Positions 8,279 to 8,402 of a stretch of DNA of 9,430 bases are shown here, in pieces. The position numbers and the translations under genes were made by a program. Position 1 is the first letter of the stretch; the number at the start of each line of letters is the position of its first letter. Under the pieces are notes generated by a model. It made no database searches, was not told where the DNA came from, and worked only from the letters and a program-made list of their open reading frames with translations. Origin of the DNA: Actinomycetes bacterium (GTDB lineage: Bacteria > Actinomycetota > Actinomycetes > Actinomycetales > Cellulomonadaceae); the NCBI GenBank assembly GCA_023430425.1, contig JAEZAR010000021.1, positions 1 through 9,430 of the forward strand. Direction: 5' to 3'.

Positions 8279-8288
8279 GGGGGTGTCT

Positions 8289-8337
8289 CCTCGTCGGGTC
8301 GGGCTGGGCGACCGGCACACCGACCACCGCGACGAGG
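8289..8337 (-). promoter_or_regulatory. leuA Shine-Dalgarno sequestering hairpin
   Basis: Minus-strand CCTCGTCG (8337-8330) pairs perfectly with CGACGAGG (8296-8289). After a 4-base bulge, GGTCGG (8325-8320) pairs with CCGACC (8302-8297). These 14 Watson-Crick pairs bury four bases of the leuA ribosome site GAGGAGA (8292-8286). No T-run follows, so it would act on translation, not termination. It is mutually exclusive with the anti-sequester hairpin, as both use 8323-8337. Confidence 0.75.
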
Positions 8338-8364
8338 GACCGGCCTAGGCCTCGCCGCGGCGAC
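8323..8364 (-). promoter_or_regulatory. leuA anti-sequester hairpin
   Basis: Minus-strand 8364-8350, which overlaps the leader codons just after the Leu run, pairs continuously with 8337-8323. There are 15 consecutive pairs, of which four are G-U. The 12-base loop holds the leader stop codon TAG (8347-8345). When formed it uses up the strand that otherwise covers the leuA Shine-Dalgarno. A ribosome stalled at the first Leu codon would leave most of it free, while a ribosome at the stop would cover it. Confidence 0.72.
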
Positions 8365-8389
8365 GAAGGAGGAGTCCGTGCCTGGACAT
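8345..8389 (-). CDS. leuA leader peptide (Leu-Leu-Leu)
   Basis: A 14-codon ORF, MSRHGLLLRRRGEA then TAG, ending 66 bases before leuA on the same strand. Codons 6-8 are CTC CTC CTT, three Leu in a row, which is the mark of a leucine attenuation leader. Its own Shine-Dalgarno is absent. A TACAGT -10-like box ends 7 bases before the ATG, so the transcript may be leaderless and begin at the ATG. GTG at 8398 is in the same frame and would give three more residues, but would lie inside that box. Downstream RNA can form two exclusive hairpins placed so that ribosome position on this ORF decides leuA translation. A leuA leader element with a conserved RNA structure has been proposed in actinobacteria; whether this is the same class I could not test. 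Confidence 0.82.
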   Translation of the reverse strand: MSRHGLLLRRRGEA

Positions 8390-8396
8390 GCGGGTC

Positions 8397-8402
8397 ACTG
8401 TA
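8397..8402 (-). promoter_or_regulatory. Candidate -10 box of the leuA leader transcript
   Basis: TACAGT on the minus strand fits TANNNT and ends 7 bases before the leader ATG at 8389. No convincing -35 box is seen at the expected distance, where the sequence is G-rich. Confidence 0.45.

Follow-up and report, generated by a model that had tools for sequence, protein, structure and literature searches.

The leader upstream of leuA in the window (the whole 9,430-nucleotide stretch of DNA that was analysed) is a regular member of the LEU element, which is known from actinobacteria and mechanistically unsettled. We consider it probable that this leader is a leaderless open reading frame (ORF) whose leucine codons double as the anti-Shine-Dalgarno sequence of leuA. 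The LEU element was described in 2005 upstream of actinobacterial leuA genes as a combination of leader, pseudoknot and base stem (Seliverstov et al., PMC1262725); the original prediction had mentioned proposed actinobacterial leuA leaders with a conserved structure. All of these parts are found in the window: an upstream Leu-run ORF, a base stem which includes the Shine-Dalgarno sequence (SD), and a pseudoknot pairing 8345-8339 with 8316-8310, located upstream of an actinobacterial leuA. The exact pseudoknot helices are presumably the same as the published ones. In the open-licence papers, as far as their available text extends, no later answer to the mechanism of the LEU element was found. 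The two-fold translational switch proposed in the original prediction proved sound in kind, while another stem is more widely supported than the one at its centre.

Leader frame, hairpin and pseudoknot upstream of leuA

The three best named relatives of the LeuA protein encoded in the window originate from Cellulomonas (76-79% identity). Features of the leader, neighbours of leuA and related copies from other genomes are collected in Table 1. Rfam searches gave no match for the whole window at the gathering threshold or for positions 8260-8430 at E values up to 1.

Table 1. Coordinates of the leuA leader, its RNA strands, neighbouring genes and further copies of the element.
Feature	Position	Strand	Remarks
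leuA, 2-isopropylmalate synthase	6467..8278	minus	NCBIfam PRK03739 and TIGR00970; ATG 8278
leuA Shine-Dalgarno (SD) GAGGAG	8287..8292	minus	8 nt before ATG
Base stem P0, 3' strand	8287..8295	minus	contains whole SD
Fold 2, 3' strand	8289..8302	minus	pairs with 8337-8330 and 8325-8320
Pseudoknot 3' strand GCCGGTC	8310..8316	minus	pairs with 8345-8339
Hairpin H1, 3' strand	8326..8337	minus	partner of 8361-8350
Pseudoknot 5' strand GGCCGGT	8339..8345	minus	in H1 loop; overlaps last base of leader stop
Leader ORF MSRHGLLLRRRGEA	8345..8389	minus	ATG 8389, TAG 8347-8345; from sequence and frame conservation
Hairpin H1, 5' strand	8350..8361	minus	conserved portion of fold 1, with variable pairs at its ends
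Base stem P0, 5' strand	8362..8371	minus	Leu2, Leu3 and following bases; 8371-8368 and 8366-8362 paired, 8367 bulged
Leu codons CTC CTC CTT	8366..8374	minus	inside leader ORF
-10-like hexamer TACAGT	8397..8402	minus	7 nt before leader ATG; predicted leaderless start
RecO domains	within ORF 4280-6025	minus	leuA neighbour
Isoprenyl transferase	3450-4484	minus	leuA neighbour
MOSC-domain protein	2258-2971	plus	leuA neighbour
Fur-family domain	within 263-1732	plus	leuA neighbour
leuC copies (3-isopropylmalate dehydratase large subunit), Leu leaders	L111 1049-1155; L137, L162, L163, L165, L166; L193, L195, L197, L199, L201; odd-numbered L203-L221		21 by tblastn
leuS copies (leucyl-tRNA synthetase), Leu leader	L113 1652-1759; L116 973-1081; L118 2672-2779	minus for L118	R1 match, tblastn
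ILV-codon variant with conserved tiny ORF, core ARRALQESMDLRD	L112, L171, L173, L182-L192		

Relatives of LeuA were taken from named genomes, and the best 80 loci together with the window gave 81 upstream regions. The hairpin H1 was present in 77 of them and absent in four (L018, L057, L065 and L070); 76 of the 77 carried a Leu-run leader by the rule used. In L041, upstream of a leuA match at position 2501, the hairpin is present and the frame, judged by eye, seems to contain Trp-Trp with one Leu codon where the other leaders have the Leu run. From the 77 regions, 59 entered the alignment A1, 68 were used for shuffled-pairing and first opening-cost calculations and 67 for a first swap test and codon count; those omitted were regions whose leuA start could not be placed, whose loop was long or misread, or which nearly duplicated another region. 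A larger set was assembled from 140 copies found in whole genomes (a few of which are named loci), reduced by 15 and joined with the 67 of the first set; filtering of the resulting 192 sites below 88% similarity left 139 non-redundant copies, namely 107 upstream of leuA, 20 of leuC, 11 of the ILV type and one of leuS.

The Leu leader with the codons CTC CTC CTT which the original prediction had placed here is indeed encoded on the minus strand (8389-8345), and its stop codon lies within the loop of the hairpin as claimed. Each of the 139 copies has a leader frame that opens with a start codon and ends at a stop within the H1 loop, an arrangement found for the other two frames in just 2 and 1 of the 139 copies; conservation of the leader frame thus exceeds chance. 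Among the 107 leuA copies, Leu occupies the last two positions of the run in 106 and 107 cases, respectively, and of the 132 copies having Leu at the final position, 126 use CTT there. Over 67 leuA upstream regions, the 255 Leu codons of the run comprised 119 CTT, 96 CTC and 34 CTG, compared to 161 CTT, 1158 CTC and 1819 CTG among 3392 Leu codons in the leuA bodies. The depletion of CTG fits selection for pairing with the purine-rich SD, to which codons with a third-base pyrimidine are suited. Selection for rare codons would not suffice as an explanation, because CTC remains common and CTA, TTG and TTA are not enriched in the runs.

All 139 copies have a -10-like hexamer whose end lies 6-10 nt upstream of the leader start, at a distance of 6 or 7 nt in 120 of them; it has the form TANNNT in 136 copies and CANNNT in three. 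As the -10 score was itself used in choosing the leader start, shuffled upstream sequences are the relevant control: scores of at least 4.5 were reached by 130 of 139 copies and 7.8% of the shuffled upstreams, and at the laxer threshold of 3.5 by all 139 copies and 30% of the shuffled upstreams. A scan for consensus promoters detected no -35/-10 pair. The hexamer TACAGT at 8402-8397 predicts a transcript start at or beside the leader ATG, and hence a leader that would be translated as a leaderless message. Upstream of the -10-like site, a G+C-rich direct repeat of 17 bases occurs in two adjoining copies (8459-8492, minus strand).

The hairpin described in the original prediction as fold 1 could be reproduced base by base, with 15 consecutive pairs including four G-U between 8364-8350 and 8337-8323. 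Its conserved part is H1 (8361-8350 with 8337-8326), for which 91% of the cells are paired in the 59 aligned sequences and 6 of 12 pairs show changes on both sides; fold 1 is thus conserved and covaries. Conservation of the helix extends over 8360-8351 with 8336-8327. At its ends, 41 of the 59 sequences lack the pair at 8361 and 23 lack the one at 8350, and the pairs of the window at 8364-8362 fall outside the aligned helix. The covariation score of H1 and pseudoknot together was 0.157 compared to 0.116 in shuffles, 0 of 500 of which reached the observed value, and sliding the partners gave 0.058-0.114; further pair types, one of five measures in the shuffle test, were unexceptional (133 of 500 shuffles as high).

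The conserved pseudoknot was absent from the original prediction. In the MAFFT alignment 42% of the cells in its columns are paired, a figure which probably understates the pairing as loops of unequal length are out of register. A position-free strand test was therefore preferred, which asks without alignment whether the two strands of one copy match each other better than they match the partner strands of other copies, permuted within class. Over the 139 copies this own-versus-swapped test yielded z values, which ignore kinship (no tree correction), of -14.4 for H1 and -11.7 for the pseudoknot; by class the pseudoknot reached -10.1 (leuA), -2.1 (leuC) and -4.9 (ILV).

Stems predicted to hide the Shine-Dalgarno sequence

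Two further pairings would bury the SD. Fold 2, regarded in the original prediction as the off state, pairs 8337-8330 and 8325-8320 with 8302-8289 in 14 Watson-Crick pairs exactly as described. The pairing of 8371-8361 with 8296-8287 with one bulge, mentioned there as a third option, is equally exact and corresponds to the base stem P0. In the own-versus-swapped test over 139 copies, again uncorrected for kinship, P0 gave z = -5.9 and fold 2 z = -3.7, while two controls gave +0.1 and +0.9. The two stems differ in how far this signal extends. P0 was supported in the leuA class (-4.9, 107 copies), the leuC class (-3.3) and, weakly, the ILV class (-2.1), whereas the values of fold 2 were -4.5, +0.7 and +1.2, respectively. 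Among leuA copies, those from Microbacteriaceae gave -3.2 for P0 and -0.6 for fold 2, those of the phylum sample -2.1 and -3.5, and the remaining ones -1.8 and -0.9 (-2.1 for fold 2 with longer strands). The 18 Cellulomonas leuA copies show little divergence and, taken alone, no own-specific signal in any of the stems tested (P0 -0.5, fold 2 -0.6, pseudoknot +1.4). An earlier run within clades with 67 leuA copies resulted in -3.9 for P0 and -1.1 for fold 2; one control in that run, the Leu run against the pseudoknot region, reached -2.5. In a comparison with composition shuffles (68 upstream regions), own pairing was the better one in 71% (P0) and 60% (fold 2) of the copies.

P0 is consequently the SD-hiding stem with the widest support, and among leuA copies alone fold 2 is about equal to it. 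The parts of the element, their conservation, the covariation of H1, pseudoknot and P0, the leader frame and the -10-like site are thus read from the sequence and its comparison with relatives. The minimum-energy fold of 8389-8281 (-54.9 kcal/mol), obtained by the energy-model calculation proposed with the original prediction, contains fold 1 and P0 together. This result contradicts the assumption that fold 1 leaves the SD free.

We then considered the cost of opening the SD as a function of ribosome position, using an energy model that leaves the pseudoknot out and masking a ribosome footprint that extends 15 nt in both directions from the first P-site base. The mean cost over 139 copies was 5.62 kcal/mol without a ribosome, 3.06-3.17 kcal/mol with a ribosome just before the Leu run, 3.13 and 3.32 kcal/mol with the first (Leu1) and second (Leu2) Leu codon in the A site, 4.54 kcal/mol with the third (Leu3), and 4.2-5.0 kcal/mol at positions beyond. 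Similar values were obtained by the same method for 68 leuA upstream regions (5.38 without ribosome, 2.76 at Leu1, 2.93 at Leu2 and 4.49 at the stop). For the window the contrast was larger, the cost being 7.35 kcal/mol without ribosome, 2.22 one codon before Leu1, and 2.23, 4.53 and 8.52 kcal/mol with Leu1, Leu2 and Leu3 in the A site; it amounted to 8.35-10.24 kcal/mol over five codons past Leu3 and fell to 5.24 and 2.42 kcal/mol near the stop. The computed drop from 7.35 to 2.23 kcal/mol agrees with the original claim that a ribosome at the first Leu codon marks the open state. The accompanying claim of an off state with the ribosome at the TAG agrees with the mean of the leuA class (5.23 kcal/mol, 107 copies) and fails in the window, where the SD is predicted to be open at this position (2.42 kcal/mol). 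With a ribosome on the run, the cost fell from 4.9 to 2.8 kcal/mol in the leuC class and from 4.8 to 3.2-3.4 kcal/mol in the ILV class, and past the run, before the last position, the SD of both classes barely recloses (3.1-3.8 and 3.2-4.2 kcal/mol, respectively).

When tails were swapped between species, the difference between the states without ribosome and with the ribosome at Leu was 1.58 (se 0.12) compared to 2.39 (se 0.21) kcal/mol for own tails. About two thirds of the contrast survives the swap because a purine-rich SD pairs with CUY codons in any case. Furthermore, the SD is equally open with a ribosome just before the run, so any ribosome early in the leader would count and not only a waiting one. 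In the on-state predicted by the model, a ribosome is thus held on the first Leu codons or before reaching them.

The own-specific pairing of the stems, the leader frame, the -10-like site, the codon bias and the opening costs make the combination of H1, pseudoknot and P0 the best model. Without a ribosome on the leader, H1 and the pseudoknot would bend the RNA such that the Leu run and the following bases come to pair with the SD, and formation of P0 would switch leuA translation off. With Leu-tRNA in short supply, a ribosome that has begun on the leaderless AUG would wait with a Leu codon in the A site, cover the Leu run and thereby block P0; H1, downstream of this ribosome, could still fold and keep its own 3' strand off the SD, so that leuA would be translated. 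When leucine is plentiful, the ribosome would move on, and the SD would be closed again by P0 or, at some leuA genes, by fold 2. The transcription start, the waiting of the ribosome and the sign of control are the steps which we infer.

Alternatively, mutually exclusive folds 1 and 2 could form the main switch, with fold 2 as off state whenever a ribosome covers the 5' strand of H1. This reading, which we consider unlikely, can draw on the 14 Watson-Crick pairs of fold 2 in the window, on its z of -4.5 over the 107 leuA copies close to the -4.9 of P0 and its lead in the phylum sample, and on the rise of the window cost to 8.35-10.24 kcal/mol when the ribosome occupies the last Leu codon or has just passed it. 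However, the signal of fold 2 is missing in Microbacteriaceae, Cellulomonas, leuC and ILV copies and, except with longer strands, in the remaining leuA copies, although the test of its strands is a weak one as the 3' strand of H1 is nearly fixed; moreover, H1 and P0 together already bury the SD without fold 2. The proposed switch between two folds is hence supported in part: fold 1 is conserved and covaries, and fold 2 is supported among leuA copies and not at leuC and ILV copies, whereas P0 has the wider support. Within the model of H1, pseudoknot and P0, leuA genes, including that of the window, may use fold 2 as a genuine second off-state.

Further copies of the element at leuC, leuS and near leuB

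Genomes were searched with the covariance model R1, which represents the hairpin only, and matches were counted at E values up to 0.01. The element was found in 78 of 81 genomes of the genus Cellulomonas, in 38 of 40 and 37 of 40 genomes of the families of an Intrasporangium and a Herbiconiux genome, respectively, and in 36 of 40 genomes drawn evenly across the class. The latter is a better figure than that of the phylum-wide scan (at least 47 of 396 genomes), a lower bound as 9 candidates were scored per genome. R2 matched 39 of 40 Cellulomonas genomes, exclusively at sites already found with R1 and with no separate ILV-type copy. Four R1 matches (L194, L196, L198 and L200) precede LeuA paralogues with 47-54% identity to LeuA of the window and failed the H1 rule. 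L175 (395-506) contains an element-like hairpin and, by eye, a candidate pseudoknot of 9 pairs with no recognised leucine gene downstream; it is a plausible element, while L176 is probably spurious.

For the 140 whole-genome copies, the nearest of four downstream genes tested by tblastn was leuA in 99 cases, leuC in 21, leuB in 14, leuS in three and none of them in three; NCBIfam confirmed one to three examples each of LeuC, LeuB, LeuS and the LeuA paralogue (7 proteins). In the Herbiconiux family, 24 of 40 genomes had two or more matches, and in all 10 chosen from these and fetched with both copies, one copy precedes leuA and one leuC. Copies before leuS were found in 3 of 81 Cellulomonas genomes. 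These are LEU elements, in contrast to the Streptomyces leuS leaders, which the available text of PMC1262725 and PMC8079986 describes as classical attenuators with terminators.

Leaders linked to leuB, present in 5 of 40 genomes of the class sample, carry Leu, Ile and Val codons. Their pseudoknots differ in sequence; those of L112, L171 and L173, judged by eye, have 7-8 pairs. A tiny ORF with the core ARRALQESMDLRD follows 14 of the 15 listed ILV-type copies, the exception being L174. It comprises 20-31 codons with the nearer plausible start; in L184 and L185 it could start further upstream. Among 13 copies of the core (L187 was missed by the search rule), third codon positions differ 3.76 times per pair compared to 0.45 and 0.62 times at the others, a pattern indicative of translation and of selection at the protein level. 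The tiny ORF of genome G168 was found in 5 of 60 class genomes, including G168 itself and the centre genome G005, three of the matches having weak E values (0.007-0.028); all five sit 48-248 nt downstream of a LEU-type element. The 70 nt following the tiny ORF fold at -24 to -47 kcal/mol, given as bare folding energies. Where leuB was found, it begins 229-738 nt after the ILV-type element; it was not found in L192.

These copies also bear on a different explanation, namely that the element is a putative binding site of a regulatory protein, the orthologs of ML1624. The authors of PMC1262725 proposed such a protein from the phylogenetic pattern and favoured it because Streptomyces coelicolor mutants did not behave like those of an attenuator: mutations in the leuA leader had some effect, inconsistent with classical attenuation, and mutations of the Leu codons did not influence regulation (Craster 1999, as far as reported in PMC1262725). 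These observations speak against our model as well. Nevertheless, a binding site would need neither the start codon, frame, stop and -10-like site present in all 139 copies nor a change from Leu to mixed Ile, Leu and Val codons before the tiny ORF near leuB, and we regard this explanation as improbable.

As a tentative extension, in which we have rather less confidence than in the model for the window, one leaderless switch whose sensing codons are also the anti-SD may have been reused at leuA, leuC and leuS with retuned codons, and its ILV version may control the tiny gene near leuB. The switch would explain the paradoxical leuA mutants of S. coelicolor, because a change of Leu codons alters sensor and stem together. 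The comparison predicts two tasks of the Leu codons, sensing and hiding of the SD, which should be separable by synonymous codons combined with compensating changes of the SD. Should the copies at leuC, leuS and the tiny ORF act in the same way, translational control gated by ribosomes would extend over much of the leucine metabolism of these bacteria, and the tiny protein would gain a place in the physiology of branched-chain amino acids.

Comparison with known leader systems

The leucine leader attenuator of proteobacteria (Rfam Leu_leader) carries Leu codons in a leader peptide and acts via a transcription terminator. The window shares the leader Leu codons with it and matches no Rfam family. 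Classical or Rho-dependent transcription attenuation would be compatible with a Leu leader and exclusive folds, and the available text of PMC4046766 terms the leuA leader of Corynebacterium glutamicum an attenuator leader, but it appears a poor candidate here, as the intrinsic terminator expected between leader and gene in a classical attenuator was not detected (0 terminator-like hairpins with a T run at 8200-8530) and the leuA leader of Streptomyces lividans is reported in the accessible part of PMC8079986 without a typical terminator.

Leader peptides of leuA are in print for C. glutamicum and C. diphtheriae (available text of PMC4046766, PMC3890552 and PMC5784534). LeuL1 of S. lividans (MRFGLLLLSCRGEGL), located before leuA, likewise has LLLL followed by S-C-R-x-E and is reported as leaderless, as predicted for the window; unlike the leader described here, it is listed as an attenuator, and the accessible part of PMC8079986 gives no translational model. 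The ilvB-II motif of Corynebacterium also combines an upstream ORF rich in branched-chain amino acids with alternative RNA folds, yet according to the available text of PMC10272879 it has a proposed intrinsic terminator, in contrast to the window.

With the LEU element of PMC1262725 the window shares the Leu-run ORF, the pseudoknot, the base stem between Leu run and SD, the lack of a reported terminator and leuA as target. That report covers leuA and one transposase gene, whereas the present copies also precede leuC, leuS and a tiny ORF near leuB. As no report of copies at leuC, leuB or leuS was found in the available text of open-licence PMC papers, those before leuC, leuS and the ILV-codon tiny ORF are possibly new. 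Beyond the published description, the comparison adds the leaderless -10 signature, the codon bias, the support of the base stem by partner swapping and the energetics of ribosome position.
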